Part shown: in pieces, positions 12,295 to 63,000 of the stretch | Position numbering within the stretch: position 1 is the stretch's first letter | Layout of the letters: every line of letters starts with the position of its first letter | IMG/VR virus record: IMGVR_UViG_3300044801_000216 | Location: 1 to 63,561 of that record | Direction: 5' to 3' (one strand) | Length of the DNA: 63,561 bases | Source: a virus | The notes under the pieces: model-generated | Databases searched by the model: none | The model's input: only the letters and a program-made list of their open reading frames with translations | Told to the model about the DNA's origin: nothing | Made by a program: the position numbers and the translations under genes

Positions 12295-12309
12295 CTTGGT
12301 TGTTTACCC

Positions 12310-12573: not shown

Positions 12574-12601
12574 TCCCGCAAACAACCACGAAGCAGTCAT
12601 C

Positions 12602-32677: not shown

Positions 32678-32873
32678 AGACCTGGTGGCGGAGCACCGGG
32701 AGTGCGTCGAGATTTGGACGGCGATTTCGCATATTGCCGCCGCATGTTACCCTAAGCTCGACGAAGACGCGCGCAACGCCTACGAGATACTTCCGGGGCT
32801 GATCGACCGCTGCAAGGAAACGTTCGATGCGCTGCCGGTGGAGAGCCGTCCGCTGCACTACTTGATGGTCTGA
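32640..32873 (+). CDS. Small protein between terminase genes, 77 aa
   Basis: Starts MTTTKTETKTKTEDLVAEHR (a low-complexity head made from overlap with the acidic tail of the previous gene in another frame, 38 bases), and the body is helical with two Cys. GTG at 32685 could be the true start. Its stop overlaps the terminase ATG (TGATG). Function unknown. Confidence 0.5.
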   Translation: MTTTKTETKTKTEDLVAEHRECVEIWTAISHIAAACYPKLDEDARNAYEILPGLIDRCKETFDALPVESRPLHYLMV

Positions 32874-35191
32874 TGTACGCCAAACGCATTATCGACCGCA
32901 ACATAGACCGCTGGCTGGCGAGCCCGGCCAATCGCGGCGCCAAACTGGAACCCGTGTCCGTTCTCGAATTCTCGCGCGTGGTCGCGCACCTCGATTCTCT
33001 TGTCGAGAAAGATCGAGAATCCGGCCGGCTCATACCCATACGCCAGACGACTCCCGACGGCCGCCAGGTCTTCAACTCCTCCACGGGTCAGCCGCTTCTG
33101 ACCTGGCAGGACACCCTCACCGAAGAAGAGCGCAAGTGGATCAGGCATCAACGTGTCCTGTGCGCGCTGGACTTCTGGTACTGGGTAGAGCGCGCCTGCT
33201 GGATCAAGGACACCGACAACCAGACCGTCCGTATGGAGTTGTGGAAGAGCCAGCAAATCTTCCTCGAACTCGTGGCCGAGATGGAGGACGAAGAGATCGC
33301 GATCTTCCTCATCATCTTGAAGGCGCGGCAGCTCGGCATCAGCCGTATCATCACGCTCATCTTGCTTCACCGCGTGGTGTTCGACTCCAATATCAACGCT
33401 TACCTGGCTTCTTCGACCGAGAAGAAGACGCTGAAGCTCTTCAAGCTGATCTCGTTCGTGCTGGTCCGCATGCCCTTCTGGATGCAGCCCGGCAGCGGCC
33501 AACCGGGCAAACTCGGCAAGGTGGACCAAGCCGGCAAGCTGCTGGAGTTCTTTAACGGCTCCGCGATCACGATGGAGCACGGCCAACAGTCTACCGGCAT
33601 GGCCCGCGGCGACTCGCCGAACGTGGTCCATCTGTCCGAACTGGCCGAGTTCGACGACCTCACCTCTCTTGTCGATTCCGCCCTGCTGCGCGGAATGCAT
33701 CCGTCCCCCCGTGCGTTTCTGGCTCTTGAAGGCACTGCCGAAGGCATCAACAACCCGTGGCATCAGAAGTGGGAGTCCGCCAAGTCGGACTGGCCGCAGC
33801 GCAGAGGCAGGCTCCGGCCTCTCTTCTTGCCGTGGTTTGTAGGCGGTTTGTACCCGAAGGAAGTCTTCTTGCGCTCGAACCCGGTGCCGCCCGACTATTC
33901 TACTTCGATGGCTTCCTGGGCTCTGTCGCACGCCAAGATGGCCGAAGAATATGTGCGTCAGAACGACTACCTGGCCCGGCGCCTGGGTTCCAACTGGCAG
34001 ATGCCCCTGGAGCAGATCTGGTACTACGAGTGCGAACGCGGCAGCGCCGTCAAGGAGAACCGTCTCAACAAGTTCCTGCAAGAGATGCCGGCCAACGACG
34101 ACGAAGCCTTTCAGAGTTCCAATATCACCGTGTTCGACGTGGAGACCCTGAACTTCTACCGCACCAACACACGTACCCAACCTGTCTGGGGCGTGTTCGG
34201 CTTGCGCGGACCCACCGAGTTTGTCCCCCCGCGCCTTCAGCCTTCCGACATTCTCATTAACAAGTCCCTGCCGCCCATTCCAATAGACGCCGACGCCGGC
34301 GGCGGCGTCACGATCCACTTTGAACTGGTTCCCTTGCAATTCAGAGGTTGGGACTACGAGGGCGACAGCGCCAAAGGATCGGTGGACAAAATCTACGTTT
34401 GGGAGCCTCCCATCGAAGGTTTCGAGTACGGGTTCGGCTGCGACACCGGCGACGGCATCGACAAAGACCGCACCTGCATCGAGGGACTGCGAAAATACTC
34501 TCTGGAGGGCCCGACCAAGCAGGTCTGCGAGTTCTCTTCCGGCCATATGAACGCCTTGGACGCCTGGCCTTTCTTACTCGCCTTGGGCACCTGGTACAGC
34601 GTGCCAGACCGCCACGGTACGCGCCGCCAGGCACGTATGGCGATCGAATGCAAAGGTCACGGCGACCTGGTACAGAACGTCCTGCGCCTGATGAACTGGA
34701 CTAACTTCCACATGTGGAACGACCGCAAGATCGACGACCGCAAGGTCGATCTCTCGCAGGCTCACAAGATGGGCGTGTTCACCAACTTCTTCTTCCGCCG
34801 CGCCATGATCGAGATGATCGTCCGCAGCTTGCGCGATGGCGAGATCGAGGTCTGCTCTCCGTTTTTTGTGAAAGAGATGCAGTCGCTTGAAGGCGACGAA
34901 TACGCCCAAGAACTGCGGGCCGGCTACGGCGGCCACGACGACCGGATTATGAGCCTGGGTTTCATCCTCTCCAGCTTTTATAAGTGGGACCCGAACTACT
35001 GGCGCGCGGCCAAGATCATGGCCTACAGCGGGCGCAACCCGGCGCACGCGGCCTACGATAATTCGATCCTCTTGGGTTCTTCGGGCGCACCCGGACAATC
35101 CATAACGCGCGCGCAACCGAGCCGGCAATACGCCTCTTGGGCCTACGGAGCGCAGTCGAACACCGACGGTCTGCCCGAGCGGCGTTCTTGA
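32873..35191 (+). CDS. terL: Large terminase subunit, 772 aa
   Basis: The ATPase part has the terminase-style Walker A LKARQLGISRI at about residue 150 and VVHLSELAEFD near 250 as Walker B plus the catalytic Glu. A second acidic cluster, FGCDTGDGIDKDRTCI (about 520), is the first motif of the RNase H-type nuclease domain, and GGHDDRIMSLGF near 685 its last acidic motif. It is longer than the usual 450-600 residues, with an N-terminal extension of about 90 residues and a Ser/Gly-rich end. It cuts and translocates DNA into the prohead with the portal. Confidence 0.93.
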   Translation: MYAKRIIDRNIDRWLASPANRGAKLEPVSVLEFSRVVAHLDSLVEKDRESGRLIPIRQTTPDGRQVFNSSTGQPLLTWQDTLTEEERKWIRHQRVLCALDFWYWVERACWIKDTDNQTVRMELWKSQQIFLELVAEMEDEEIAIFLIILKARQLGISRIITLILLHRVVFDSNINAYLASSTEKKTLKLFKLISFVLVRMPFWMQPGSGQPGKLGKVDQAGKLLEFFNGSAITMEHGQQSTGMARGDSPNVVHLSELAEFDDLTSLVDSALLRGMHPSPRAFLALEGTAEGINNPWHQKWESAKSDWPQRRGRLRPLFLPWFVGGLYPKEVFLRSNPVPPDYSTSMASWALSHAKMAEEYVRQNDYLARRLGSNWQMPLEQIWYYECERGSAVKENRLNKFLQEMPANDDEAFQSSNITVFDVETLNFYRTNTRTQPVWGVFGLRGPTEFVPPRLQPSDILINKSLPPIPIDADAGGGVTIHFELVPLQFRGWDYEGDSAKGSVDKIYVWEPPIEGFEYGFGCDTGDGIDKDRTCIEGLRKYSLEGPTKQVCEFSSGHMNALDAWPFLLALGTWYSVPDRHGTRRQARMAIECKGHGDLVQNVLRLMNWTNFHMWNDRKIDDRKVDLSQAHKMGVFTNFFFRRAMIEMIVRSLRDGEIEVCSPFFVKEMQSLEGDEYAQELRAGYGGHDDRIMSLGFILSSFYKWDPNYWRAAKIMAYSGRNPAHAAYDNSILLGSSGAPGQSITRAQPSRQYASWAYGAQSNTDGLPERRS

Positions 35192-48917: not shown

Positions 48918-51900
48918 ATGGCATCCTACCAGCGCGACTCCAACAAATTCGCTTACTCGGGCATGGATATTCGCCACCCGCCCGATCTGATGCCCGCTGG
49001 AAGATGTCCGCTGCTGTTCAACCTGCAACCGGACTTGCAATCCGGCGCGCTGGCGCTTCGTCCGGCGATCTCGCTATTGGCTACTGTGGGTGCGGGCGTG
49101 CCCGTTCATTCGGTGGTCCGGCTGAACGATAGCGTCCCCGGAGCCAACGCTTCAAGCAGGTTTGTCGGAGCCGGAGCGAATCTCTATAGTCCAGCCGGTC
49201 TGTTGGACACCGGCTACAGCGGCAACCCGCTGGCGCTGGTTCCATACCGTCCCGCTCAATCTCCGGAGTCCTGGTTGTACGTCTACGACTCGCTCCGGCA
49301 GCGCCGATGCAAGACCGACAACGCGCCGATCCAGCAGATCGGCATCGCCGCTCCCACGCAAGAACCGGCTGTAGCGTCCGTGCTTCCGCTGTACGATCTG
49401 CTCGATAACGCCGCTCTGGCCGCGTCGTGGACGGCTATCGATCTCTCCGGGGGCACGGCCGGCGCGGCAACTCAGGTAAACCGCGTGCCGCAACCCGGCG
49501 CCGGTATGTCGCTGCTGACTTCGCTCTACGACTCCGGCGTTACCGGCATGGGCTTGTTCGCTCCCACACTGTACGTCTACGGTCCTCAGGAATTCGCGTG
49601 GATGTCCGAGGGCAGCATGGTCACCCTCGGCGGCGAGACCGTGACGATCGAGCAGGTCGTACCGGGCACTTACAGCACAACGGTTAGCTCGATCGCTTAC
49701 GATTCGGGCGCTACCGGACTTTGCACCATCGTGCCGGCGGTACCGCTTCCGGGTCTGGTTCGCAACGCGCTGATCTGTTTGAACACGACTTCCACGCCCC
49801 CAAACGGCACATACGCTCGCGTTCTGAGCGTCACCGCCGGCCCGGACGGATCTTACTCGTTTCGGTGCTCGACCGGCGCCGCCACGATATTGTCCGGTCA
49901 AACTATCGTGGGCATCCCGTGCTTTCGGGCGTGGACCGCCGCCAATCATGTAGCCAACGCACCCGTCACGGGCAAGTCGATCAACTTCACGTTCACCCCC
50001 ACCGTAACCAACGGTTCGATGTCGGCGATCGTTAACGCCACACCCGTAACAGGTAACATCTCTTATGCCGGCGCGCGGCCTCTTCAGAACGAAGACTACA
50101 TGCACTTGAGCCTGGCCTTCGACCATCCCGAGTGGGTGACCGAAGTCCACATTCTGCTCGATGTAGACGCCGCGACCAACGACTTCACGCAGAACTACTA
50201 CTACTACGTGATGCGCCAGGGAGACTTCCAAGCGTCCAACGTGGGCGGGTCCACTACCTTGCAGGACCAGTTTAACGCGCTGTCCAATGCGATTGCCAAT
50301 CAATTGGGGTCCGTCGAGGAACCGGCGGCCGGAAGCGGCGCGCCAAGCTACCCGGTGCCGGAAGAATTACAGACGAGTCCGCCGTTGACGGCCCAACTGA
50401 TCCTGGGTTCCCTTGGTTGGACCGAGGTCATGTTCAAACTGTCCGATCTGACTCGTGTAGGATCGGATCAAAGCAAAACCTTGGCCAATGTGGCCAAGAT
50501 CGGCATTCAGGTTTTCACGAGCGGCGGAGTGGTCAACTTATACTTCGGCGGCTGGTGGGCCGGCGGCGGCTACGGTCCGGACTGCAACTTTAACTCCGGC
50601 GGCAATCAGGCGCCGCCGATCCAGTGGAGATACCGGTATCGGAACTCGCTCACGGGCGCCCGCAGCACCGTGAGCCCGGAGACGCGCAATGGTGAAATAC
50701 TACGTCGTCAGGCGATCTCGCTCACGGTCCCCAACAGTGCGGATACTCAGGTTGACACCGTTGATTTCGAGCGAAGAGGTGGAACGAATCCGGACTGGCA
50801 TTACGTCGCTTCGGTGCTGCAAGGCGGAAGCACAACCACGTTTGAAGATCATGTGACCGAGGCGGCCGCGCAGATTAGCGATCCGCTGGAGGTGGCCTGC
50901 TACCAGCCCTGGCCGGTCACGGATATGCCAAGAACGGGAACCGCAACGGTGGTTGGGACCTCGGTAGTCTGGTTGTCCGGAGACAAGTTCAACCTGCGCT
51001 GGCTACGGGGCGCCGAGATCGTCATCGGCGGAAACACGTACAGCCTGTTCGCACCGCCTACAAGCGCGACAGTTATTCAACTGGCGGAGAACGTACCGCC
51101 GCCAGGTGGAGTTCTCGCTTTCTCTATCCCCGAAGCGACCATCGAAGGACAACCCCTGTATGGTTGTTGGTTGGATGAAGCGAACAACCGGATCTGCGGT
51201 GTGGGCGACCCGCTCAACCCAGGCCTGATGTACTTCTCGAACAACGACAACCCGGACGGCGCATCGGATTCGGGATACCTTGAGATCACAAGCCCGAGCG
51301 AACCGTTGCTGAACGGGTTCTATGCCGAGGGTTCCAACTACGTCTTCACCTCTTCGTCGCTGTATCGTGTAGAGTCTACACCTGGAGCGGCGAACCCGTA
51401 TGCGGCGTACCGCTTGAGCGGCATCGAGGGTCTGGCCGGCGCATGGGCCTTCGATGTACGGCGCAAGATGCTGTTCTATTGGGGGCCGGACGGGGTATAC
51501 GCTTACGGCTTCGGCGCGGCGGCGGAGAACCTGACCGCGACGGACCTATATCCGTTGTTTCCGCATGCGGGCCAGGCCGGTCAACCGGGCTTTCCGGGTG
51601 TGCCCGTAAACGTGGTGGGCCAGACGATCTACCCGCCCAACTATGCGCTGCCCAACTTGTTGCGCGTCGGTTACGCGGAGAACTTCGTCTACGCCACCTA
51701 CCAGAACTCGAACGGCACGATCGAAGCGTTGGTGTACTCGATCTTGTCGAAGGGCTGGCGCAAGGATTCGTATCTGCCCGGAGCGACGCTGTTTGTGCTG
51801 GAGAAGGGTGTGCAGAACCCGGTGCTGATGGTAGGCGGCGCGGACGGCAATCTGTACCAGGTGGACAGCACGGCCACCGCGGATACGGGCGGACCGATCG

Positions 51901-52859
51901 ACTGGGTTGTCTTACCGCCCGTTAAAGACATGGGCGACAGCCGCGCGGTGAAGCAATTTGGCGACCTGTGGTTCTCTTACGCCGGATCTCCCTCGATGCA
52001 GGTATTGTGGGACAACCTGCTTGTAACGGGCCCGGCGCCAACAATCGCGGCGGCTGCCGCACGCACTCAAGCGATTCTGGATCTGTTCGCGTCACCGGAC
52101 ACGAACGATACGCCGTTGATTCACTACAATTTGACCGCGTTGCTGACCGGCACCGGACCTGTTTGGCTTTACGAGTGGCAACCTTCGTTCATCCCGCTGC
52201 CGGAGTCCACGACCTCGCGCGTGACCGCATGGGGCGGTGGAGACACGTTGCACTACAAGTTCGTGCAGGGCATACGGATTCACGCGAACACGCAGGGCCG
52301 GACGAAGCAATTACAAGTCCAATACGACGGCTACCAGGTGGGTCCCACAATTGCGGTGAACCACGACGGCGAGCAAACCCTGCCGTATTCGTTCGCCGTT
52401 CCTTTCAAGGCGCACATGATGCGTTTGGTCCCATTGGACGACGTGCCTTGGGAACTCTGGGAAGACAGCCAGTGGGTGTACGAACCCGAGCCGGAACCGG
52501 CTAACTACTGGATCTCGCAGCCGACCTCGCTTGGGCAGTCCGGGTACGTTCACGCACGCGAAAGCTGGATTGCGTTCGCTGGAGCGCAGGGTGGCACTGT
52601 AAGCGCCGTTGTGGACGGAGGGCCGGCTACGCTGATCGCCAGTTTGCCGGCGGCGTCCACGCCGGTCAAGCAATACTTTGTATGTCCCCCGCTGAAGGGC
52701 CGGTACTGGCAGTTGACCGCGTCGGGAACAGGGTTGCAATTGTACGAGAAGGACATCGAATTCCTGGTCAAGTCCTGGGGCAGCGCCGGACCCTACCAGA
52801 GAGTGAAGCCGTTTGGCGATCTTAGTGGCGGCGGCGGCGCGTCGGGAGCGCGGATCTGA
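48918..52859 (+). CDS. Large tail protein, 1313 aa
   Basis: The largest protein in the window. It is beta-rich, with Gly/Thr/Ser-rich segments typical of tail hub, nozzle or tailspike-adapter proteins, and contains no signal peptide or repeated motif I could name. It is the expected long tail gene of a short-tailed phage. A perfect 13-bp palindrome lies inside it (51368-51380). Its stop overlaps the next start (TGATG). Confidence 0.65.
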   Translation: MASYQRDSNKFAYSGMDIRHPPDLMPAGRCPLLFNLQPDLQSGALALRPAISLLATVGAGVPVHSVVRLNDSVPGANASSRFVGAGANLYSPAGLLDTGYSGNPLALVPYRPAQSPESWLYVYDSLRQRRCKTDNAPIQQIGIAAPTQEPAVASVLPLYDLLDNAALAASWTAIDLSGGTAGAATQVNRVPQPGAGMSLLTSLYDSGVTGMGLFAPTLYVYGPQEFAWMSEGSMVTLGGETVTIEQVVPGTYSTTVSSIAYDSGATGLCTIVPAVPLPGLVRNALICLNTTSTPPNGTYARVLSVTAGPDGSYSFRCSTGAATILSGQTIVGIPCFRAWTAANHVANAPVTGKSINFTFTPTVTNGSMSAIVNATPVTGNISYAGARPLQNEDYMHLSLAFDHPEWVTEVHILLDVDAATNDFTQNYYYYVMRQGDFQASNVGGSTTLQDQFNALSNAIANQLGSVEEPAAGSGAPSYPVPEELQTSPPLTAQLILGSLGWTEVMFKLSDLTRVGSDQSKTLANVAKIGIQVFTSGGVVNLYFGGWWAGGGYGPDCNFNSGGNQAPPIQWRYRYRNSLTGARSTVSPETRNGEILRRQAISLTVPNSADTQVDTVDFERRGGTNPDWHYVASVLQGGSTTTFEDHVTEAAAQISDPLEVACYQPWPVTDMPRTGTATVVGTSVVWLSGDKFNLRWLRGAEIVIGGNTYSLFAPPTSATVIQLAENVPPPGGVLAFSIPEATIEGQPLYGCWLDEANNRICGVGDPLNPGLMYFSNNDNPDGASDSGYLEITSPSEPLLNGFYAEGSNYVFTSSSLYRVESTPGAANPYAAYRLSGIEGLAGAWAFDVRRKMLFYWGPDGVYAYGFGAAAENLTATDLYPLFPHAGQAGQPGFPGVPVNVVGQTIYPPNYALPNLLRVGYAENFVYATYQNSNGTIEALVYSILSKGWRKDSYLPGATLFVLEKGVQNPVLMVGGADGNLYQVDSTATADTGGPIDWVVLPPVKDMGDSRAVKQFGDLWFSYAGSPSMQVLWDNLLVTGPAPTIAAAAARTQAILDLFASPDTNDTPLIHYNLTALLTGTGPVWLYEWQPSFIPLPESTTSRVTAWGGGDTLHYKFVQGIRIHANTQGRTKQLQVQYDGYQVGPTIAVNHDGEQTLPYSFAVPFKAHMMRLVPLDDVPWELWEDSQWVYEPEPEPANYWISQPTSLGQSGYVHARESWIAFAGAQGGTVSAVVDGGPATLIASLPAASTPVKQYFVCPPLKGRYWQLTASGTGLQLYEKDIEFLVKSWGSAGPYQRVKPFGDLSGGGGASGARI
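51368..51380. promoter_or_regulatory. 13-bp operator-like palindrome, perfect copy
   Basis: TGTAGAGTCTACA with 7-bp arms (GTGTAGA / TCTACAC, 51367-51381), inside the large tail gene. Confidence 0.6.
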
Positions 52860-53284
52860 TGGCCAAGTCCAAACGTCCGCCGGTAGCGATCAACCCGTCG
52901 ATACCGCTCGAAATCCAGCGCGAACTGCGCAAAGTAGCGTCGTTCGCCTTCGACGCGCAGGACAGATCCGACGAAGCGCTCGAAGGTCTGAAGGGCAAAG
53001 TCGGAAAGAACGCGCAAGACCTGATGGAAGTCAGTTCGTTCGTTTCCAATCAGGTGCAGGCCGGTGGGAAATATCCGATCAAATTGACTTCCCTGGTGGG
53101 ATCGGTACCGTCGTCCACGATCGCGGACGAAGGCAAGATTCTTACGGCCGGCGGGGTAAGACAGCCGACATGGCAGGCGGCCAATACTACGGGTATCACC
53201 GCAACAATCTCTTACAGAAAGTCGGATGGAGTCACCAACGGAACCCTGAATTTCACCAATGGGCTTTTGACCGGTTCCAGCTAG
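52859..53284 (+). CDS. Putative tail fibre attachment protein, 141 aa
   Basis: The N-terminal half is helical and charged (KSKRPPVAINPSIPLEIQRE), the second half Gly/Ser/Thr-rich and beta-like, ending ATISYRKSDGVTNGTLNFTN. It sits between the large tail gene and the fibre genes, a usual place for a fibre adaptor. A predicted coiled-coil-to-beta transition fits that use. No signal peptide, unlike the next genes. Confidence 0.6.
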   Translation: MAKSKRPPVAINPSIPLEIQRELRKVASFAFDAQDRSDEALEGLKGKVGKNAQDLMEVSSFVSNQVQAGGKYPIKLTSLVGSVPSSTIADEGKILTAGGVRQPTWQAANTTGITATISYRKSDGVTNGTLNFTNGLLTGSS

Positions 53285-53312: not shown

Positions 53313-55757
53313 ATGAAACGATGGATCGCGCTTCTGACGTTCTCGGCTGTGTGTGCCGCTCCGGCGCACGCGATCGCCACGGCGCAGGGCTGGTGCGAAC
53401 TGGGGAATCAAACCGTCGCGGTGCAGGGTTACATCAGCAGCGCCGATACGCCGGCGCAGCGGTCCTACCCAGGGTGTACCGTGACTGTGTATGTCACCGG
53501 ATCTTCGGGCACGCTGGCCACGCTCTACGCCGACAACAACGGTACGGGCTTGGCGAACCCGTTCACGGCGGACAGTTATGGCCGCTGGTTCTTTTACGCC
53601 TCGGGCGGCTACTACGACGTGTCGATCTCCGACGGAGGAATGCCCACACCATATACTTTTGGCGCAATAGACGCGGTGGATACGTGCCTGGTCGGCAAGG
53701 TGCTGTCGAAGGTGCTGGTGCAGGTAGCCGACGTGAACGTACCCAACGCACAGGTGATGGGCGCGCTGGGAACGGGGATCGTCAAAAACACGGCCGGCTC
53801 GGGAGTACAGTCGATCGCGGTCGGAGCCGATCTGCCGCCGATGATAGGGGATTCGGGTTCCGGTGGCACACGGGGCGCGGTGCCGGCGCCACCCGCGGGA
53901 AGCGCCGCGGGCAACGAGTTTCTATCCGCGTCGGGCACTTGGGGTCCTATACCGATTTTGATAGGCGATTCGGGCTCGGGTGGGACCGCCGGGGAAGCTC
54001 CGGCGCCGCCGGCCGGGTCCGCCGTGGCTGGAAAGTTCTTGAGCGCGGACGGAACCTGGGCCGTTCCGAGCGGAGGCGGTGGCGGCACATGTTCCAATTG
54101 CGTCACTTTGGACACGGTGCAGACCATAGTGGCGGCGAAGACGTTCACCGCGGGGATTGTGATGTCCGGTTCGGATGTGGAGTTCGACAACGGGCATCAG
54201 GTTCGGTTCAAGGATACGTCGGGCAGTTATCAGACCGCTTTGACGTGGGACGCATCGAACAATGTCGATGTAGGTCCTGTTAGCGGGAGCGGGGGAAACA
54301 CTTATTTGTGGGCGGGCGGATACGCCGTCGCGGGCGCGACTGTGACCGCCTTTTTACCCAACGGCGATTTCACCAAGAATTTGGGAGACGGGACGCACCG
54401 TTGGCTCTCTCTGTCGGTGGGCACCGTCGATGTTTATGGCAGCGGGGCTCCTCCTAACCTGGAATTACTCAACCCCACGAGTGGCCAGTACGTGGACATC
54501 ACTCTGCCCGCCACGGTGACTACTTCGTACACGCTGACGTTGCCTCCCGCTCCCGCTTCGGCCGGCAATTGCCTTGGAACCACGGGCGCCGGCGCTACAT
54601 TGTACTGGGTGGCTTGCAGCGGCGGTACGGGAAGTCTTCCGGCGCTCGACTCTACCTCTATCGTCGAAGGCTCCTCCGATAACACGAAGCAGATGAAGTT
54701 CAGCGTCGCGGGACTTACGACCGGAACCACGCGCACGCTGACGGTGCCGGACGCCAACATCACCCTGGCCGGACTCGAAAATACACAGACGTTCACGGGG
54801 CAGAAGACGTTCTCCACCGCGAACGTGATTCTGGCCGGGTCCATAGAAGTTCAACCGGCTACGGACTTCGGTTCCCTACTCGGAGACGCCACGCACCGTT
54901 TTGGGGAACTGTTCGCGGGGCACGTCGGTTTGTACAGCGGAAGTTATTACGTGGAATTGAGTACCGCCGCGAGTCCGAGCGCGTCTTATAATCTGACGTT
55001 TCCTCCCGCCGCCGCTACGGGCGCCGGTTGTCTGGGCACTGCCGGAGCGGGTTCCACACTCTCATGGGTGACTTGTTCGGGCGGCGGCGGCCTGCCCGTG
55101 GTCGATTCCACATCCATCGTCGAAGGGTCTTCGGATTCGACCAAGCAGATGCGGTTCAGCGTAGCCGGTCTGACTACCGGCAACACGCGGGTGATGACCG
55201 TACCGGACTCGAATATGACTCTGGCGGGACTGGAGAACGCACAGACGTTTACGGGGGCGAAAACATTTAGCAATTCGGACGTGGTTCTGTCTGGGGTTAA
55301 TTTGGATCTCGACAACAACACATCGATTCGTTTCAGGGACACGATTGCGGTCTATCGGACAACGTTGACGTTGGACAGCAGCGGCAACGTGGACGTAGGA
55401 GCGATCACCGGAAGTGGAAACGCTTACCTGTGGGCGGGCGGATACGCCGTCGCGGGCGCGACTGTGACCGCCTTTTTACCCAACGGCGATTTCACCAAGA
55501 ATTTGGGAGACGGGACGCACCGTTGGCTGAGTTTGTCCACCGGGAACATAGACATCTATGGCAGCGGGGCTCCTCCTAACCTGGACTTGCTGAACCCTAC
55601 GAGTGGCCAGTACGTGGACATCACTCTGCCCGCCACGGTGACTACTTCGTATACGCTGACGTTACCGGCGGGTCCGGCTCCCACTGGCGCCCAATACTGT
55701 CTCGGAATCGCCAGCGGAGGCGGCGGTACGCTGACCTGGGTGCAATGCACTCCGTAA
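53313..55757 (+). CDS. Fibre-like protein with Sec signal peptide, 814 aa
   Basis: The N-terminus MKRWIALLTFSAVCAAPAHA is a typical Sec signal peptide with a probable cut after AHA. The rest is a fibre-like beta-rich protein with two copies of a module starting VEGSSD(N/S)TKQM(K/R)FSVAGL and two copies of a VTAFLPNGDFTKNLGDGTHRWLS segment; at DNA level 100 bp are identical (54307-54406 and 55429-55528). Bacterial export of a phage fibre would be unusual. It is the first of a run of signal-peptide genes. Confidence 0.7.
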   Translation: MKRWIALLTFSAVCAAPAHAIATAQGWCELGNQTVAVQGYISSADTPAQRSYPGCTVTVYVTGSSGTLATLYADNNGTGLANPFTADSYGRWFFYASGGYYDVSISDGGMPTPYTFGAIDAVDTCLVGKVLSKVLVQVADVNVPNAQVMGALGTGIVKNTAGSGVQSIAVGADLPPMIGDSGSGGTRGAVPAPPAGSAAGNEFLSASGTWGPIPILIGDSGSGGTAGEAPAPPAGSAVAGKFLSADGTWAVPSGGGGGTCSNCVTLDTVQTIVAAKTFTAGIVMSGSDVEFDNGHQVRFKDTSGSYQTALTWDASNNVDVGPVSGSGGNTYLWAGGYAVAGATVTAFLPNGDFTKNLGDGTHRWLSLSVGTVDVYGSGAPPNLELLNPTSGQYVDITLPATVTTSYTLTLPPAPASAGNCLGTTGAGATLYWVACSGGTGSLPALDSTSIVEGSSDNTKQMKFSVAGLTTGTTRTLTVPDANITLAGLENTQTFTGQKTFSTANVILAGSIEVQPATDFGSLLGDATHRFGELFAGHVGLYSGSYYVELSTAASPSASYNLTFPPAAATGAGCLGTAGAGSTLSWVTCSGGGGLPVVDSTSIVEGSSDSTKQMRFSVAGLTTGNTRVMTVPDSNMTLAGLENAQTFTGAKTFSNSDVVLSGVNLDLDNNTSIRFRDTIAVYRTTLTLDSSGNVDVGAITGSGNAYLWAGGYAVAGATVTAFLPNGDFTKNLGDGTHRWLSLSTGNIDIYGSGAPPNLDLLNPTSGQYVDITLPATVTTSYTLTLPAGPAPTGAQYCLGIASGGGGTLTWVQCTP
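54307..54406. repeat. 100-bp direct repeat, copy 1
   Basis: Identical to 55429-55528 within the same fibre gene; similarity continues less perfectly to about 54547 and 55669 respectively. Confidence 0.9.
55429..55528. repeat. 100-bp direct repeat, copy 2
   Basis: Second copy of the 54307-54406 sequence, 1122 bp away, in frame. It may mark a recent intragenic duplication that allows recombination between fibre modules. Confidence 0.9.
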
Positions 55758-55779
55758 ACTTACAATAAGGAGAACGCCA

Positions 55780-56103
55780 ATGCGCGCGATCGCAACTCTG
55801 ATTTTTACGGCCCTTGTTGTCTTGGCCGCGGACACGAAACCCACGGTTACGTCCCCGGCCGGTCCCCTGCCGATCCCCAAGGACCGCCAGGAAGACATCT
55901 CCCGCGCCATGCTGCACGTGCAGCAAACGCAGATGGCCGAGGTTCAGACCCGTACCGCCGCCGAGTCCGCCGCCGAGCACTACCGCATTATGCTGGCGGC
56001 GCTTCAGAAAGAGTTCAACGCCGAAGGCTGCGATCTGGACCTCGACAAGACGTGGCGTAACTGCCCGGCGGAGAAAACTCCGGCGGTTCGGCCCGCGAAG
56101 TGA
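55780..56103 (+). CDS. Secreted helical protein, 107 aa
   Basis: MRAIATLIFTALVVLAADTK is a signal peptide or N-terminal anchor. The mature part is a long helix with Gln/Ala/Glu (MLHVQQTQMAEVQTRTAAES), suggesting a coiled coil, and two Cys near the end. It lies between two fibre-like genes. It may be a periplasmic helper, or a spanin-like protein, but no spanin partner is apparent. Confidence 0.6.
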   Translation: MRAIATLIFTALVVLAADTKPTVTSPAGPLPIPKDRQEDISRAMLHVQQTQMAEVQTRTAAESAAEHYRIMLAALQKEFNAEGCDLDLDKTWRNCPAEKTPAVRPAK

Positions 56104-56109
56104 GAATCT

Positions 56110-59100
56110 ATGCGTAGAATCGTTCTGCTGTTCCCGTTATTGATCGCGTCCGCCTGGGCTCAGTGCGCGGGTGGCGCCGGAGTAATCACCAGCCCATCCA
56201 CGTGCGGAGGATGCTCCGGTGGCGGCGGCGGCGGCGGAAGCGTCTCGTGGGGCGCCATCGTGGGCACGCTGGGCAACCAGCTCGATCTGGCGGCAGCGTT
56301 GAACGCGAAGCAGAATACAATCGCGTCCTACGCAACCATCAGCGGTTTGCTGGGGTATCCGAGCGCGTTCAACCCGGTGAACACGGGCGACTGGGCGGGG
56401 ACCTGGCAGACGCACCAGCCGTCGTACTTCCAACCCGCGTTGAGCGCCTACTCGACCATCAGCGGGCTGAGCGGGTACCCGTCCACTTTCCCGCCGATCA
56501 ATACGGGCGACTGGGCGGGGACGTGGCAGGGCCAATCGCCGGGCGCGTGGGGGAGGTATTTCTCCGCGACGCGGACCAGCGGCGCGGTGCTCACGCTGGG
56601 GGCGGACTGCACAAGTGCCAATCCCTGCCCGGTGAGGGTCGGCAATACTACCTACCGGCTGACCTCGAGCGCTACGGTGACTCTCAGCGCGGGCGCCGGC
56701 AGCGGCACGGCCCAGGTCTACGTGGTGAGCGGCGGCGCGCTCACGGTTGGGCACAACCTGACGGGCGCGGATGTGACTTGCGGGGGCTGCACGGCGGTTT
56801 CCAGCGTCACCAATCCGCCCGTGCCATCGACGCTGCTGTGGACCTGGACGGCGACTTCGAGCACATGGGACACCTCCGGGGGGACCGACTTTCGCGCGGC
56901 CTACTCGACACAGAACGTACAGGCGGGAAGCGCGGGCGGAGTGGCGGTGAGTACTTCGGGGGATGCGACTACGGTGGAGCAGGACCCGGCTACGATCTAT
57001 GGATACGCCCCCGCGAGGACCGGGACTATCGGAAGCTTGCCGGGAACGTGCGGAGCCGGGGAGCAGTATTTCGCCACCGATGCGCCGCCCGGAGCCAATC
57101 TGTATTTCTGCACGGCGACCGATACCTGGACTTCAATGGGCGCGATTATCGACTCGTTCACGACAACTTCTCTTACCCTGTATCCGCTAGTGAACCCGAC
57201 AAACACGTCTTATGCCAATCCAGGTGGATCGGGAGACCGAAGATCCTCTATAGTCGTAGCGGTTTCGTCCCCAAACTCCCCCGTGGGAGGAGATCTAACG
57301 GAACTGGTCGATGGGATTACGAGCGGCGGGGGCGTGTACTTTCCAATCGCCACGGACATTTCCGGCCGATGGGTTAGCTTTGACTTCGGCGTACCACGTC
57401 TGATATCCGAGGTTACTTTGTACCTCTGGGGAAGTAACGATATGCAGAACTGGAAATGGCAAGCTTCCGCGGATAGTTTTGCTTGGACCGATATTAGCGC
57501 GATCTTCGATATTCCAGGAAACACCAGTCCACTTACTGTAAGTTGTCCCGGATCGACATCGTACCGTTATTGGCGAATGATCGAGACGAGCGGAGTGGTA
57601 AGCGGAGGAGCGGTTCGGGAGGTCACGTTCAAAATCTCCACCGACCCCCTCCTGGATACAACGTTGACGAACTACGGAAAGTCCCTGACCTATGGGATAG
57701 AATCGGCGCAGGCGTTCCAGGCCATCGGGGTATACAAAGGAACTTGCGACATCTCCGCCAGAGGCCAAATCTACGTGGACAAGGGAGCTTCGGGAGTCTC
57801 CGACCAGAGTTACGAGTGTATAAAGGACGCGAACGACGCTTATGTATGGTTGCCGCTTACGCCCTCGGTGCGGTCGGATTTCTTCTCCTGGAACGTGGTA
57901 CCGGGAACGGCTTGGGCATCGGCGGGAGCGCAAACCGCGACTTTGGCGCCAGTGCCCGCCGGAGTCAACGGCGCGGATTCTTCGCACAATCTGTACATCT
58001 CGGACGGGTCTAACTCGGAAGTGGTAACGATCACGGGTGGAACGGCCGTCAGTGGGGCGGCTTCCGGCACGATAACGTTCACTACGGCGAACGCACACAA
58101 TAACACCGCCTGGACTCTCGGTTCCGCCACGGCGGGAATAAAAGAGGCTTCCGAGTATCTGGTTTCCGGGGGGACGATACACGTTCCCGCCGGCAATTCC
58201 ACGATGCGCGCCGCGGCGGCGATTACCAAGTCCGCCATCAAAATCGTGGGAGACGGCGGGTGGTCCGCGTCATACGACGACACATCTCATGGGTCCGTGC
58301 TGGTCAACCACTCGAACACAGCCGATGTTATCCAGATCGGAGACGCCTCGAATCATACTTACGGCTTCCAACTGGAAAGTGTTGGGTTCACGACGGACAC
58401 CTACGCGGTCTCCGGAGCGGCGACCGATGGCGGGTTAATTAAGTTGACGATAGCTCCGCACGAGTTCTCTACCGGCGACAAGGTGTATGTGCGCAACGTC
58501 GGCGGGGTGACGGCGGCAAACGGATACTGGACGGCAACTGTCGTGGACGGCACGCACATCGACCTGCAAGGCTCGACGTTCTCCGGCGCTTACTCCTCCG
58601 GCGGAGCTGTCTATCGGTCTAAAACCGCCGGGTCCGCGATCCATCTCTATAGCTTCTCGAACGCCTCGGTACGCGATGTTACTATCCGCCATCATTACCA
58701 GCCGGTCTTGGTTGGGTACGGCGACAACTTCCATTTCGACAACTATGTCATCAAAGGCACGACGCCAAACGTTATATCCGCCGGGAGCGCGGGCATCGCT
58801 ATCAACACCGCCGGAAACGAAGTCTTCGTCGGAAAAGGCGTCATCGACGTGGACGACGGCGTTTGGACGGCCAACGGGGGTCCGTGCGATTTGTCTTACG
58901 GGTTCTGTCCCAACCAGGAGCCATACGCGGGCATTTTGATGTTACAAGGTTTTGGCATATATATCGACGGCGCCAGCGTGATTCACGGCGGCCATGGTCT
59001 GCTTGCGACCCCCACAGCGGGAACGGCGGTAACGTGGGTTTATATCGTAAACTCCCTGTTCGATACGTCGTCGGGTACGAACTTGATTCAACCGAACGGT

Positions 59101-59781
59101 AGCGGCGCTAACGTGTACGGCGTGGTTCTCGCAAACGATTGGTTCACTAACAACAACGACACGGGGTTGACAATCTCCCAGTCTTCCTCCGGTGTGGTGG
59201 ACGGGGTACAAATCTCCAACGCCCGTGTGTTCGACAATAGGCAGAACGGAATTTATTTAGCGGCGGGGCGCAACCTCCAAATCGGGTCCGAGTCCCAAAT
59301 CTGCGGTAACGGCCTGGGTTCTTCCAACACTTACGACGGCTTGGTAGTCGGCGCCGGCGCCTCTCACTGGTCGTTTGGGAACTCCACATCGGGAACTTGC
59401 TCTGGGTTTGGAACGAACCAGCGTTACGGCGTCAACATCGGAGCCAGCGGGCCGTACTTCAGAGTTGTGGGCAACGATTTATCGGGGAACGCCACGGGTG
59501 GATTTGCGAATACAAGTGGGGCCGCAAACGGGATCGTATCCAACAATTTGGGATACAACCCGGTGGGGGCCGGTTCAATCAGCGTGACCGGAAGCCCGTT
59601 CACCTACACGGCCGGCCCCAGTCCAGAGGTAGTCTACATCAACGGCGGCACGGTTTCCGGGGTGGTGCGGGGATCTTCGACGATCTGCGCGGCGAGTCCA
59701 TGCCAAGCGACACTGCCTCCGAACGGCGCGGTGGTTGTCACCTACAGCTCGGCTCCGACGATGGTCAAGGACGTACAGTAA
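56110..59781 (+). CDS. Beta-helix spike-like protein with Sec signal peptide, 1223 aa
   Basis: Begins MRRIVLLFPLLIASAWAQC, a Sec signal peptide ending in Ala-Gln, then a Gly-rich linker (SCGGCSGGGGGGG-like). Residues ~370-510 look like an F5/8-type C (discoidin) sugar-binding domain (WVSFDFGVPRLISEVTLYLW; Trp and Gly positions fit). Residues ~690-1150 are long right-handed beta-helix-like repeats with Gly/Asn/Val turns (NTAGNEVFVGKGVIDV, NLIQPNGSGANVYGVV). It could be a spike that binds or cuts cell-surface sugar. No catalytic triad is evident. Confidence 0.7.
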   Translation: MRRIVLLFPLLIASAWAQCAGGAGVITSPSTCGGCSGGGGGGGSVSWGAIVGTLGNQLDLAAALNAKQNTIASYATISGLLGYPSAFNPVNTGDWAGTWQTHQPSYFQPALSAYSTISGLSGYPSTFPPINTGDWAGTWQGQSPGAWGRYFSATRTSGAVLTLGADCTSANPCPVRVGNTTYRLTSSATVTLSAGAGSGTAQVYVVSGGALTVGHNLTGADVTCGGCTAVSSVTNPPVPSTLLWTWTATSSTWDTSGGTDFRAAYSTQNVQAGSAGGVAVSTSGDATTVEQDPATIYGYAPARTGTIGSLPGTCGAGEQYFATDAPPGANLYFCTATDTWTSMGAIIDSFTTTSLTLYPLVNPTNTSYANPGGSGDRRSSIVVAVSSPNSPVGGDLTELVDGITSGGGVYFPIATDISGRWVSFDFGVPRLISEVTLYLWGSNDMQNWKWQASADSFAWTDISAIFDIPGNTSPLTVSCPGSTSYRYWRMIETSGVVSGGAVREVTFKISTDPLLDTTLTNYGKSLTYGIESAQAFQAIGVYKGTCDISARGQIYVDKGASGVSDQSYECIKDANDAYVWLPLTPSVRSDFFSWNVVPGTAWASAGAQTATLAPVPAGVNGADSSHNLYISDGSNSEVVTITGGTAVSGAASGTITFTTANAHNNTAWTLGSATAGIKEASEYLVSGGTIHVPAGNSTMRAAAAITKSAIKIVGDGGWSASYDDTSHGSVLVNHSNTADVIQIGDASNHTYGFQLESVGFTTDTYAVSGAATDGGLIKLTIAPHEFSTGDKVYVRNVGGVTAANGYWTATVVDGTHIDLQGSTFSGAYSSGGAVYRSKTAGSAIHLYSFSNASVRDVTIRHHYQPVLVGYGDNFHFDNYVIKGTTPNVISAGSAGIAINTAGNEVFVGKGVIDVDDGVWTANGGPCDLSYGFCPNQEPYAGILMLQGFGIYIDGASVIHGGHGLLATPTAGTAVTWVYIVNSLFDTSSGTNLIQPNGSGANVYGVVLANDWFTNNNDTGLTISQSSSGVVDGVQISNARVFDNRQNGIYLAAGRNLQIGSESQICGNGLGSSNTYDGLVVGAGASHWSFGNSTSGTCSGFGTNQRYGVNIGASGPYFRVVGNDLSGNATGGFANTSGAANGIVSNNLGYNPVGAGSISVTGSPFTYTAGPSPEVVYINGGTVSGVVRGSSTICAASPCQATLPPNGAVVVTYSSAPTMVKDVQ

Positions 59782-59794
59782 TAGGAGATAACTT

Positions 59795-60952
59795 ATGCGA
59801 AGAATCTTTGCACTGTGCGCACTGTGCGCGTTGTGGACGCTGGCTATTATAAGCGCGGCGGCGCAGATCACGCCTCCGCCAGGCGGCGGCGGCAGTCCGG
59901 TTGACCTCACCGCGATTCACCCCGCCAGCGCCCTAACCGGCAGTGGCGCGCTGCTGAAGGACTCCGCAGCGGGGACGGTGGGGCTTCAGACCGGCACGGG
60001 AGTTGCGCGGCTCGCTTCCGGCGTAGCAACCGCAGCCGAACTCTCGGGCGACGCAACCACCAGCGGGAGTAATGCCGTTACCGTCACGGCTCTCCACGAT
60101 TCGATCTGTCACGGTGCCGGTGGTGGAGCGGTCTTGCACAGCGATTCTCCATATGCGATTCCAGCGGGGTGCAGCTACATGGACTGCGACGCCACGGCGG
60201 GAGCCGTTGTGCTGACTCTTCCCGCTACGTCGGGGAGCGGAAGAGAGATCACAGCCAAAAAGATAGACTCCTCGACGAGCGCCTGCACCCCAACCGTTAC
60301 CGGCGGCGATGCGGTAGACGGTGTTTCGTCTTTCAGTTTGACCTCGCAATGGGCTTCCAGTAAGGTAGTTGACCGGGCAACGGGATACTGGGACAGGTCG
60401 CATGTGAATCAGTTGGCGGGAGACGTATCCGGGGCCAGCACAGCCAACACTGTGACTAAGATAAATGGAACGTCTCTCGCGGGGCTGGCAACCGGATTCC
60501 TGTTCAACACGATTACTACGGGAGTTCCCACGGTTCCCACCGCAACAGCCAATACGGTGCTCGCTGGTCCAACTTCCGGCGCTGCGGCGGTTCCGACTAC
60601 CCGCGCTTTGGTGGCTGCGGATATTCCGGCAGTTCCTATCGTTTCCGGCACCGGGGGCGCGCTTACCGGGCCGTCCGAGTTTTACGTTTGCACAACCACA
60701 TGTACGGTGACTCCTCCGGTCCCCGTGGCAGGTTATCAGTTCTGCATTCGCAACGCTCCCGGAGTTTCCACGGTTATCACTCTCGCTGGAGTCGCACTGG
60801 TGTACTACGAGAAAACCGACTTATCGGGGTATGGGACTGTTGCGACGGCGGCAACGTCGAGCGGGATAACCGGAGACAAGATTTGTATTGTGGGGCTGGA
60901 TGCAACCCATTACTTGACGTACTCATATATGGGCACGTGGACGGTGAACTAA
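59795..60952 (+). CDS. Fibre-like protein with Sec signal peptide, 385 aa
   Basis: MRRIFALCALCALWTLAIIS is followed by AAAQITPPPGGGG, a signal peptide and linker. Residues ~75-105 (ELSGDATTSGSNAVTVTAL) match a short phage fibre module seen in many tail fibres. The rest is Ala/Thr/Gly-rich and beta-like with two Cys pairs. The repeat CTGTGCGCA in the signal peptide DNA is a local direct repeat. Its stop and the next ATG overlap (TAATG). Confidence 0.65.
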   Translation: MRRIFALCALCALWTLAIISAAAQITPPPGGGGSPVDLTAIHPASALTGSGALLKDSAAGTVGLQTGTGVARLASGVATAAELSGDATTSGSNAVTVTALHDSICHGAGGGAVLHSDSPYAIPAGCSYMDCDATAGAVVLTLPATSGSGREITAKKIDSSTSACTPTVTGGDAVDGVSSFSLTSQWASSKVVDRATGYWDRSHVNQLAGDVSGASTANTVTKINGTSLAGLATGFLFNTITTGVPTVPTATANTVLAGPTSGAAAVPTTRALVAADIPAVPIVSGTGGALTGPSEFYVCTTTCTVTPPVPVAGYQFCIRNAPGVSTVITLAGVALVYYEKTDLSGYGTVATAATSSGITGDKICIVGLDATHYLTYSYMGTWTVN

Positions 60953-62160
60953 TGAAACGGCTTTTCGGTTCGCTCGTTTTGTTTGCCGCTATCGGGATGG
61001 GGCAGATTCTCGATCCCATACTTTCCGGTGACGGAGGTCCGTTTACGCTGGTCGCAACCACGGTCGGGTCTTCGCAGACGGTGACAATAAACAGGCTGAC
61101 ACTCAATGGCAACGCTCTGCTCAATTGGGGCGATGGCGGCACCGCTACCATTACCAGCGGCAACACCGGAGCATGGACCCATGTGTATGCGGCGGCTGGG
61201 GCGCACGCGATCACGCTTCCGAACGCTCGGATGATCGTGGGATTGGACTTGCGCGACGCACAACTAGGCGGGCTGAATACCTCGCAGTTGAGAACAAGCT
61301 CGCTGAACTACTTCTATGCGACTGCCATAACCGGGAGCACGGTTAAGAGCGCGGACATGAGCGCGTGGAGGCCAACGTACTGGGGACTGTACTCCATGCC
61401 CGCCGGAACCTACTCGATCTCCAGCGCGGATATGTCGGCGTGGCGGCCTACGACTTGGTCCCTAGCCTACATGCCCACTGGAACCTACAGCATCTCCAGC
61501 GCGGATATGTCGGCGTGGCGGCCTACGACTTGGTACCTGTTCTCCATGCCCACGGGGACGTACTCGATTTCCAGCGCGGACATGAGCGCGTGGAGGCCAA
61601 CGAACTGGGACCTGTTCTCCATGCCCGCCGGAACCTACTCGATTTCCAGCGCGGACATGAGCGCGTGGAGGCCAACGAACTGGTACCTGTTCTCCATGCC
61701 CACGGGGACGTACTCGATTTCCAGCGCGGACATGAGCGCGTGGAGGCTAACGAACTGGGAACTGTTCTCCATGCCCACGGGGACGTACTCGATTTCCAGC
61801 GCGGACATGAGCGCGTGGACGACGGTGCAAAATCTGTATTGTTATTCTAACGTGGGTGGTGTACTAACCATCTCGGCGTATACGGATTTTACCGGACTCG
61901 TTGCGCTGCACAATCTGCAACTGCAAAACAACGCCTTAGCCCAAGCGTCGGTGGATGCCGTGCTTAAAGGACTCTGGACCGCCCGCGCCAGCTTCACGTA
62001 TGCGACCCCATCGCTGACGATCAATGGGACGAACGCAGCGCCTTCTGGAATCTATCAATCGAACTGCCCAACCCCCGCGACAGGTAAAGAATGGGCATAC
62101 GATCTGGTCCATGAAACGTGTGCGGGCGGTGGACACGTCTGGACTGTAGCGACTAACTAA
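60952..62160 (+). CDS. Repeat-rich secreted fibre-like protein, 402 aa
   Basis: MKRLFGSLVLFAAIGMGQIL is a signal peptide. Residues ~45-85 resemble a PKD-like domain (NWGDGGTATITSGNTGAWTH). Then six 25-residue repeats (61354-61803) with the core SADMSAWRPTxWxLxSMPxGTYSI (shortened here), then a C-terminal Cys-containing part. The repeats vary mostly at the residue pair after Thr-x-Trp-x-Leu, like a modular ligand-facing surface. It could be a receptor-binding or decoy protein. Confidence 0.65.
   Translation: MKRLFGSLVLFAAIGMGQILDPILSGDGGPFTLVATTVGSSQTVTINRLTLNGNALLNWGDGGTATITSGNTGAWTHVYAAAGAHAITLPNARMIVGLDLRDAQLGGLNTSQLRTSSLNYFYATAITGSTVKSADMSAWRPTYWGLYSMPAGTYSISSADMSAWRPTTWSLAYMPTGTYSISSADMSAWRPTTWYLFSMPTGTYSISSADMSAWRPTNWDLFSMPAGTYSISSADMSAWRPTNWYLFSMPTGTYSISSADMSAWRLTNWELFSMPTGTYSISSADMSAWTTVQNLYCYSNVGGVLTISAYTDFTGLVALHNLQLQNNALAQASVDAVLKGLWTARASFTYATPSLTINGTNAAPSGIYQSNCPTPATGKEWAYDLVHETCAGGGHVWTVATN
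61354..61803. repeat. 75-bp tandem repeat, six units
   Basis: Units start at GAC 61354, 61429, 61504, 61579, 61654, 61729; a partial seventh begins at 61804. Two synonymous codon versions exist: units 2-3 begin GATATGTCGGCGTGGCGG, the others GACATGAGCGCGTGGAGG. The variable residues after W are Gly, Ser, Tyr, Asp, Tyr, Glu. Confidence 0.9.
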
Positions 62161-62174
62161 AAGGAGAAACCTCA

Positions 62175-62561
62175 ATGAAGCGAACGATTGTGATTTTAGC
62201 TCTGGCTATTTTGCCTGGATTGCTCTCGGCGCAAACAACCGTAGCGACGGTGACGATTACCGTGCCAACTGCGGCGGTTCCGATTGTCAACGCCTGGATC
62301 GCAACGCAGTGTGCCGTCTATGCAACCGATGGCATAACCTGTGTGACCCCTCAGTACGCCTCGGCCAAGGACCTGGCTCAACAGATTGTCCAGGCGGCGA
62401 TCAATGCCAAACTGATGGGCATTTTGCAGTGGGCCGTCACAACTACTGATCCGAGCATCCCGGCGGCCGTGAAAACTCAGATAACAAACCGGCTCAATGC
62501 ACAGACGGCCATCGCGAACGCGCAAACGGCGGCGGCAACGGCTACCGTTACGGTGAATTGA
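62175..62561 (+). CDS. Secreted protein, 128 aa
   Basis: MKRTIVILALAILPGLLSAQ is a clear Sec signal peptide ending in Ala-Gln, followed by a Val/Thr/Ala-rich mature part with two Cys (ATQCAVYATDGITC) and a helical end (LNAQTAIANAQTAAATATVT). Follows the repeat-rich gene by 14 bases with AAAGGAGAAA before the ATG. A small periplasmic or surface protein. Function unknown. Confidence 0.6.
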   Translation: MKRTIVILALAILPGLLSAQTTVATVTITVPTAAVPIVNAWIATQCAVYATDGITCVTPQYASAKDLAQQIVQAAINAKLMGILQWAVTTTDPSIPAAVKTQITNRLNAQTAIANAQTAAATATVTVN

Positions 62562-62563
62562 GA

Positions 62564-62902
62564 ATGAGACATACGCCCTGGCTTTTGGCCGCTCTGATAT
62601 TCGCGCTGGCGATGGCTCCTCTGCTGCACGCCGGAGAGAACCACCGCCATCTTTGGCTTGCGTCGGTTGCCACGCTCGTCGCAGCGGAGGGAATGGACGT
62701 AGCCAGTTCGCGCGGTGGAGTGGAAGCGAATCCGATCATGAAGCACGGCGGAGTGGCGATCAAAGTATCCGCAGTAGGAGCGGTAGTGTTGATCGAGTGG
62801 CTGGCGACAAGACACCACCCAAGCAAAGTGCCAGCTATTGTGAACTTCGCTGGAGCGGGCGCACTAACCGGCGTGGCTGTGAGAAACTGGAGGATCAAAT
62901 GA
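62564..62902 (+). CDS. Membrane or exported protein, 112 aa
   Basis: ATG 62564 gives MRHTPWLLAALIFALAMAPL, a signal peptide or first membrane helix; a second hydrophobic stretch (about 27-42) and a third (about 60-78) follow, with EANPIMKHGG between them, a pattern known from small bacterial membrane proteins with an Asp-Asn-Pro motif. The stop overlaps the next ATG (ATGA). It could be a holin or antiholin-type protein, but the family is not certain. Confidence 0.55.
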   Translation: MRHTPWLLAALIFALAMAPLLHAGENHRHLWLASVATLVAAEGMDVASSRGGVEANPIMKHGGVAIKVSAVGAVVLIEWLATRHHPSKVPAIVNFAGAGALTGVAVRNWRIK

Positions 62903-63000
62903 AACGCATTCTGCTGTTCGTTGCGATCTGCGGGGCGGCGATGGGGCCTCGGAGCGATTCTCGGTTCGCCGCAAACTCAAGAAAGGACGTATACTACTGA
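62899..63000 (+). CDS. Short signal-peptide ORF, possible frameshifted leader, 33 aa
   Basis: Reads MKRILLFVAICGAAMG then a polar tail that ends at TGA 62998-63000. The other frame downstream of a GGGG run (62944-62947) reads GLGAILGSPQTQERTYTT and continues without a stop into the next gene. A -1/+1 slip at that run would join this signal peptide to the 125-residue protein. It may be a real small gene, a frameshift remnant or a programmed frameshift. Confidence 0.4.
   Translation: MKRILLFVAICGAAMGPRSDSRFAANSRKDVYY

Follow-up and report, generated by a model that had tools for sequence, protein, structure and literature searches.

Sec signal peptides in a fibre cassette suggest that the spikes of a soil phage and its relatives, among them cultured Acidobacteriota phages, leave the cytoplasm to mature

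In the textbook picture of tailed phages, folding and assembly of tail fibres and tailspikes take place in the cytoplasm of the host cell. Virion proteins using the Sec pathway are known from filamentous phages, whose coat proteins are inserted into the membrane; these, however, are non-lytic, extruded phages with an unrelated fold and assembly. Among podophages, the tailspikes of the cyanophages Pan3 and Pam1 carry a head-binding domain, the part of the protein that docks on the virion tail. In the open-licence papers that we searched, there was no report of tailed-phage spikes bearing signal peptides (SPs). The chimeric MAT fibres of Bdellovibrio bacteriovorus serve in recognising prey, and their genes belong to a predatory bacterium and not to a phage (PMC10769870). 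WceF of Pantoea stewartii, although exported and built on a trimeric beta-helix like that of tailspikes, is a bacterial enzyme with a Tat signal, encoded in an exopolysaccharide cluster, and no virion role has been described for it (PMC7949094).

The stretch of DNA analysed here, referred to as the window, is the IMG/VR record IMGVR_UViG_3300044801_000216 at its full length of 63,561 nucleotides. It represents a complete 63.5-kb phage genome, because a direct terminal repeat is present at its ends (positions 1..127, identical to 63435-63561), and among cultured phages it is related to Tunturi 1 and 2, podoviruses that infect Acidobacteriota (PMC11924767). Two clade markers, both encoded on the plus strand, place it among the Tunturi_1-like podoviruses: the terminase large subunit (32873..35191; phrog_2), of about 30% identity to its Tunturi_1/2 homologues, and a 1313-aa SP-less tail protein (48918..52859), which has homologues in 37 of 51 records and matches a Tunturi_1/2 virion structural protein with 28% identity over 98%. 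Tunturi_1 has a similar run of SP-bearing (SP+) fibres, but the order and content of the cassettes differ, and the main text of PMC11924767 mentions neither signal peptides nor mass spectrometry. These closest cultured relatives infect Tunturiibacter; two genome scans for an acidobacterial host locus gave none, the second one returning only a Rhodobacteraceae MAG.

The original prediction held that all eight ORFs located between positions 53313 and 63000 begin with Sec signal peptides and belong to the fibre/spike region. We scored N-termini with a rule-based n/h/c-region test for Sec-type SPs, and found a tripartite SP with a cleavage site in all eight, in comparison to SP-like starts in 2 of the 59 genes called elsewhere in the window (Fisher 6.9e-9, or 7.4e-6 when just six ORFs are counted; the run was picked post hoc). 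All of these ORFs exist, and the first part of the prediction is thus confirmed, whereas a fibre- or spike-like character was found for four of the proteins (814, 1223, 385 and 402 aa) and not for the other four. The starts lie at 53313, 55780, 56110, 59795, 60952, 62175, 62564 and 62899. Shine-Dalgarno-like motifs (AAGGAG, AGGAG, GGAGG) are present upstream of 53313, 55780, 59795, 62175 and 62899; each of the starts at 60952 and 62564 either overlaps or adjoins the stop codon of the gene before it, and both look translationally coupled; at 56110 the ribosome-site motif is weak. A gene caller blind to SPs preferred later starts for the 402-aa and 112-aa ORFs and left the 33-aa ORF uncalled. 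Seven ORFs of the run resemble working genes, the 33-aa one being probably a remnant. As for the two SP-like genes outside the run, one encodes a probable lipoprotein and the other is a doubtful small ORF.

All ORFs of the run lie on the plus strand. The first gene (53313..55757, AAGGAG motif) encodes an 814-aa tailspike or fibre, in which a Sec SP (beginning MKRWIALLTFSAVCAAPAHA-) is followed by a head-binding domain and repeated phage-fibre modules. Its body has fibre-like matches to phrog_13925 and phrog_692 (virion structural). Then comes a gene (55780..56103, AAGGAG motif) for a 107-aa SP+ protein with two cysteines and no Pfam or PHROG match, which seems coiled-coil-like by eye and, as a guess, might be an assembly helper or a spanin-like protein. 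The 1223-aa fibre (56110..59781; phrog_10667) has an SP and repeated fibre-like motifs, and is locally similar to SP-less phage virion proteins. An F5/8C-like domain, predicted earlier, is indeed present in this protein, with borderline scores (PF22633, E 4.7e-6; PF00754, E 2.5e-5), whereas beta-helix repeats, claimed earlier for the long ORFs, were not confirmed in it by Pfam or by a PDB sequence search, the latter giving only chance-level cyclophilin matches. The next two genes encode a 385-aa fibre-like SP+ protein with 10 cysteines (59795..60952, AGGAG motif), for which Pfam and PHROG gave no confident family match, and a 402-aa SP+ protein in which units of the SADMSAW type recur (60952..62160), whose ATG overlaps the stop codon of the 385-aa gene and for which the caller's favoured start, 60997, would leave no SP. 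The 128-aa SP+ protein (62175..62561, AAGGAG motif) has no family match and, like the 107-aa one, is predicted to be a small exported protein. The 112-aa ORF (62564..62902), with its hydrophobic N-terminus and further hydrophobic helices, resembles a membrane protein of small size and several helices. Finally, the 33-aa SP-like ORF (62899..63000, GGAGG motif) is probably what remains, after truncation, of a 98-aa SP+ protein encoded at the matching place in the relative L020, where that ORF precedes the homologous 'MGAxxTG' gene.

It is the 814-aa protein, alone in the run, whose head-binding domain (residues about 27-125; 53391..53690, plus strand) proved homologous to solved ones, both by profile and by fold. 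In hmmsearch against the PDB it matched the tailspikes of Pan3 (9vyg, E 4.5e-4) and Pam1 (7eeq, E 8.6e-3). The AlphaFold2 model of the domain (pLDDT 91.4; one row from a deposited phage record was left out of the input) was paired by Foldseek with the tailspike domains of the same two structures (prob 1.00, E 0.015-0.05), and in BFVD it matched spike proteins of phages (E about 1e-6). A plasmid collection searched with a composite consensus of the domain gave no match. As in the cyanophages, the gene lies in the tail module, after the tail protein and a 141-aa SP-less protein (52859..53284, plus strand), whose position and N-terminus are kept in relatives. This small protein has no family match and is a possible adaptor or, alternatively, possibly the true receptor-binding protein. 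The N-termini differ: in the Pam1 and Pan3 chains the aligned domain starts near residue 20, leaving no room for an SP, whereas the window protein adds a Sec SP and, within the domain, a Cys pair (C28/C55).

In sister genomes, the head-binding gene in the slot MCP-cement-p356-head-binding gene-p455-TAIL is SP+ in three cases (G014, G010, G020) and SP-less (SP-) in two (G034, G029), and in G013 and G038 SP- copies are located between p455 and TAIL. The Cys pair was found in 36 of 38 SP+ copies, the exceptions being L003 and L074, and in 0 of 11 SP- copies (Fisher 2.7e-9, kinship ignored). Moreover, two copies are present on each of the contigs L055 and L059, one SP+ with the pair and one SP- without it. 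In SP- copies the Met is always 7 residues ahead of the Cys1 column, and in SP+ copies the predicted mature start has a median position 9 residues ahead of it (two predictor calls were corrected by eye), the predicted cleavage motifs being typical, often between A and Q. As the Met of the SP-less copies thus lies close to the predicted mature start of the SP+ ones, the hydrophobic segment appears to be an add-on placed before a complete head-binding domain. The tree of this domain is weakly resolved (the best tree has 4 SP changes, bootstrap 3-6) and compatible with a single origin; between the window and L002, the SP features are kept despite sequence change.

The original prediction had called for a check of related phages, and the pattern does recur there. 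SP+ fibre cassettes were found in metagenomic relatives of the window phage and, among the four Tunturi genomes scored (1, 3, 4 and 5), in a podovirus (Tunturi 1), a siphovirus (Tunturi 4) and a jumbo myovirus (Tunturi 5); Tunturi_3 had no SP+ fibres. The proteins concerned are gp12, 13, 14 (tail spike), 16 and 17 of Tunturi_1, gp113 and 114 of Tunturi_4, and gp337, 341, 342 (all annotated as tail fiber) and 338 of Tunturi_5. Tunturi_1 gp17 contains CHB_HEX_C_1, Fn3_assoc and Beta_helix domains, and Tunturi_4 gp114 contains Big_2. By the same rule-based test, ordinary fibres and spikes of T7, SP6 and epsilon15 were SP-, as were the Rhodobacter, Bradyrhizobium and Dinoroseobacter homologues. 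When genes of the window and 21 related genomes were compared (conserved meaning present in at least half of them), SP-like starts occurred in 0 of 123 long conserved genes vs 48 of 341 other long genes (Fisher 3e-7, kinship ignored). The long SP+ proteins are rich in cysteine, median content in the same genomes being 1.85% in SP+ proteins vs 0.72% in conserved genes.

Such export signals are at odds with cytoplasmic fibre assembly, as was claimed at the outset and as we uphold here. Judged from their sequences, Sec export of the run's proteins is well supported; that exported spikes return to the virion is what we infer. We consider it fairly probable that the run is a tailspike/fibre cassette whose products are exported by Sec, cleaved, folded in the periplasm and joined to virions at lysis. 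In this scenario, the spike and fibre proteins would be translocated into the periplasm and lose their SP, so that they would begin near the point where ordinary tailspikes begin. They would fold in that compartment, probably stabilised by disulfide bonds, with heads and tail machines being assembled in the cytoplasm. When lysis opens the inner membrane, the spikes may dock via the head-binding domain onto the tails. Genuine tailspikes are favoured because a docking domain follows the first SP and SP-less copies share the tail-module slot.

On the other hand, the SP+ proteins could be exported and never become parts of virions, working in the periplasm, on the cell surface or after release in soluble form, for example as depolymerases of exopolysaccharide, in receptor masking, in superinfection exclusion or as decoys, with SP-less proteins binding the host. 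The surface-display, biofilm and decoy roles offered by the original prediction likewise keep some probability, though less than genuine tailspikes. The SPs do point to export, the SP-less 141-aa protein comes after the tail protein in the clade, domains of Tunturi_1 gp17 and Tunturi_4 gp114 are found also in bacterial extracellular proteins, and bacteria do export SP-bearing tailspike-like proteins (Bdellovibrio MAT, PMC10769870; Pantoea WceF, PMC7949094). We nevertheless regard this explanation as unlikely, since the first SP+ protein retains a virion-docking domain and sits in the slot of the SP-less tailspikes of sister phages, and since the Tunturi_1 and Tunturi_5 records label SP+ proteins as tail fiber or tail spike. 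A still less probable scenario, suggested by the high variability of fibre cassettes and by modules that look like secreted proteins, is that fibre genes recombine with genes of secreted host proteins and carry the leaders along as passengers of little own function. However, the SP stands before a phage head-binding domain and not a host one, its state tracks the Cys pair inside that domain, its features persist as the sequence changes (window, L002), and phages of three unrelated morphotypes have SP+ fibres.

Two further possibilities concern the N-termini themselves. The original prediction had allowed for the hydrophobic N-terminus being a virion anchor; if left uncleaved, it might hold the fibre there or within some inner structure. 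The hydrophobic segments are real, but given the typical cleavage motifs, the association with cysteines and a predicted mature start matching the start of SP-less relatives, we find this very improbable. That the SPs are an artefact of wrong start codons is hardly credible at all: even with the weak ribosome site at 56110 and two starts shifted by the SP-blind caller, we rejected it on the strong Shine-Dalgarno-like motifs at most starts and on recurrence, as equivalent genes of divergent phages share the SP, also when the Tunturi genes are read from the starts that their depositors chose.

Acidobacteriota are among the most abundant soil phyla. Our analysis suggests that spikes and fibres of the window phage and its relatives mature outside the cytoplasm and join the particle afterwards, an idea open to test now on cultured phages. 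More tentatively, and with rather more doubt than confidence, one may suppose that unrelated groups of tailed phages of Acidobacteriota have each routed their host-binding spikes or fibres via Sec, with assembly divided between cytoplasm and periplasm and completed at lysis. Should spikes form in the periplasm, disulfide-bonded spikes would become possible, receptor-binding proteins would be misannotated by tools that count an SP against a role in the virion, and the standard assumption about virion assembly would fail for Acidobacteriota phages.

Signal-peptide-like starts were found by a rule-based n/h/c test in 8/8 ORFs of the run at 53313-63000 (814, 107, 1223, 385, 402, 128, 112 and 33 aa), against 2/59 called genes elsewhere in the window (Fisher 6.9e-9; the test is home-made and the run was delimited post hoc), which bears out the original prediction that all eight N-termini resemble Sec-type signal peptides (SPs). 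A Shine-Dalgarno-like motif, or overlap with the preceding stop, marks most of these starts. A gene caller blind to SPs moved two of them downstream and left the 33-aa ORF uncalled. Seven of the eight look like working genes, and the 33-aa ORF is probably what is left of a 98-aa SP protein present in relative L020. The 402-aa protein (60952-62160) carries a SADMSAW-containing unit in several copies.

Residues ~27-125 of the 814-aa protein match the tailspike head-binding domains of the cyanophages Pan3 (solved structure 9vyg, profile E 4.5e-4) and Pam1 (7eeq, 8.6e-3), and therefore the SP directly precedes a virion-docking domain. An AlphaFold2 model of this domain (pLDDT 91.4) matched those of Pan3 and Pam1 in Foldseek with probability 1.00 but E 0.015-0.05, and BFVD phage spike proteins match the fold at E ~1e-6. 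Among the run proteins only this one was shown to carry the domain; for the 1223-, 385- and 402-aa proteins, a fibre-like nature is indicated by weak family matches and by inspection.

The SP is strongly associated with two cysteines in the head-binding domain (C28/C55 in the 814-aa protein), by statistics that ignore phylogeny. Among 49 distinct copies, 36 have SP and pair, two the SP alone, none the pair alone and 11 neither (Fisher 2.7e-9), with one partial row left out and two predictor calls set by eye beforehand (L055_5055 to SP-less, its Met lying inside the domain; L031 to SP-bearing, its hydrophobic leader having been missed); the uncorrected calls give 35, 3, 1 and 11 (p 1.1e-7). The Met of SP-less proteins is always 7 residues ahead of the column of the first cysteine, and most predicted mature starts of SP-bearing ones fall 7-11 residues ahead of it (median 9; outliers exist), an agreement which supports SP cleavage. 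The cysteine pair suggests that SP-bearing spikes may form disulfides; in the fibre bodies behind the domain the cysteine contrast is less clear (1.63% vs 0.59%, p 0.029). Contigs L055 and L059 each carry both kinds of copy. The best domain tree has 4 SP changes (bootstrap 3-6), with weak resolution and too few independent pairs, and a single origin of the SP is possible.

The window has a 127-bp direct terminal repeat and is thus a complete genome. Its terminase and 1313-aa tail protein (48918-52859) are 28-30% identical to those of Tunturi 1 and 2, cultured Acidobacteriota podoviruses (PMC11924767), and homologues occur in 41/51 and 37/51 records searched, respectively (~40/51). Residues ~1104-1194 of the tail protein, in its C-terminal part, are multi-copy in relatives G044, G045 and G048, a domain copy-number variation. 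The terminase matches of G044 (L003) and G045 (L004), each with one in-frame TAG, agree in extent and score; the two fibre regions also look identical, and the records may represent a single virus that was sampled twice. Elsewhere in the window, low-complexity repeats at 11729-12796 produce long opposing ORFs, one reading DPDPDHDRD and the other VVVGVAVGV, whose coding status is doubtful, and the 171-aa product of 36535-37050, which begins with a lipobox-like segment (LIGC), is a possible lysis or spanin lipoprotein.

A search of related phage genomes for SP-bearing fibre genes, proposed with the original prediction, recovered them in metagenomic relatives and in Tunturi_1, 4 and 5. Within the order MCP-cement-p356-[head-binding gene]-p455-TAIL, the copy bears an SP in G014, G010 and G020, as it does in the corresponding MCP-to-TAIL order of Tunturi_1 (under other gene names), and lacks one in the same p356/p455 slot of G034 and G029. 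G013 and G038 have an SP-less copy between p455 and TAIL, and in the window and G048 the gene lies downstream of the tail protein and a candidate adaptor (141 aa, 52859..53284). Carrying an SP is thus optional for an otherwise conventional tailspike gene. G034 and G039 (L065, L070) combine an SP-less head-binding copy with other long SP-bearing genes, one of 384 aa and two of 790 and 1792 aa that hold 36 and 44 Cys. SP state can therefore be mixed within a genome. Across the window and 21 related genomes, SP-like starts occur in 0/123 long genes common to at least half of the genomes and in 48/341 other long genes, the latter including false positives such as an epimerase-like gene of G013. 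SP-bearing long genes are richer in cysteine (median 1.85% vs 0.72% in conserved genes and 1.12% in the remaining long genes).

Of the five cultured Tunturi phages, 1, 3, 4 and 5 were scored; Tunturi_2, left out, is a close relative of Tunturi_1 in the same genus (PMC11924767). SPs were found on gp12, 13, 14, 16 and 17 of Tunturi_1, on gp113 and gp114 of Tunturi_4 (and on its tail fiber gene ending at 83171, given the gene caller's upstream start), and on gp337, 338, 341 and 342 of Tunturi_5, three of them deposited as tail fiber; the rule-based test found none on Tunturi_3 fibre genes. SP-bearing fibre cassettes are therefore present in 3/4 scored phages: a podovirus, a siphovirus and a jumbo myovirus. 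In a small control set, no SP was found on the fibres or spikes of T7, SP6 and epsilon15, nor on three homologues from other hosts.

A search of open-licence papers, the only ones covered, yielded no account of tailed phages whose tailspikes bear SPs, and this absence is therefore weak evidence; the main text of the Tunturi paper (PMC11924767) mentions neither signal peptides nor mass spectrometry. Bacterial parallels of an exported fibre- or spike-like protein are Bdellovibrio MAT and Pantoea WceF. Judged from the predicted N-termini, Sec export of the SP-bearing spike and fibre proteins is well supported. The main rival to a virion role is that these proteins are exported but stay off the virion. 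Ordinary tailspikes dock late, onto otherwise finished particles, so spikes waiting in a periplasmic pool could join them once the membrane is breached. Exported spikes would, on our preferred reading, accumulate in such a pool and attach to virions at lysis.
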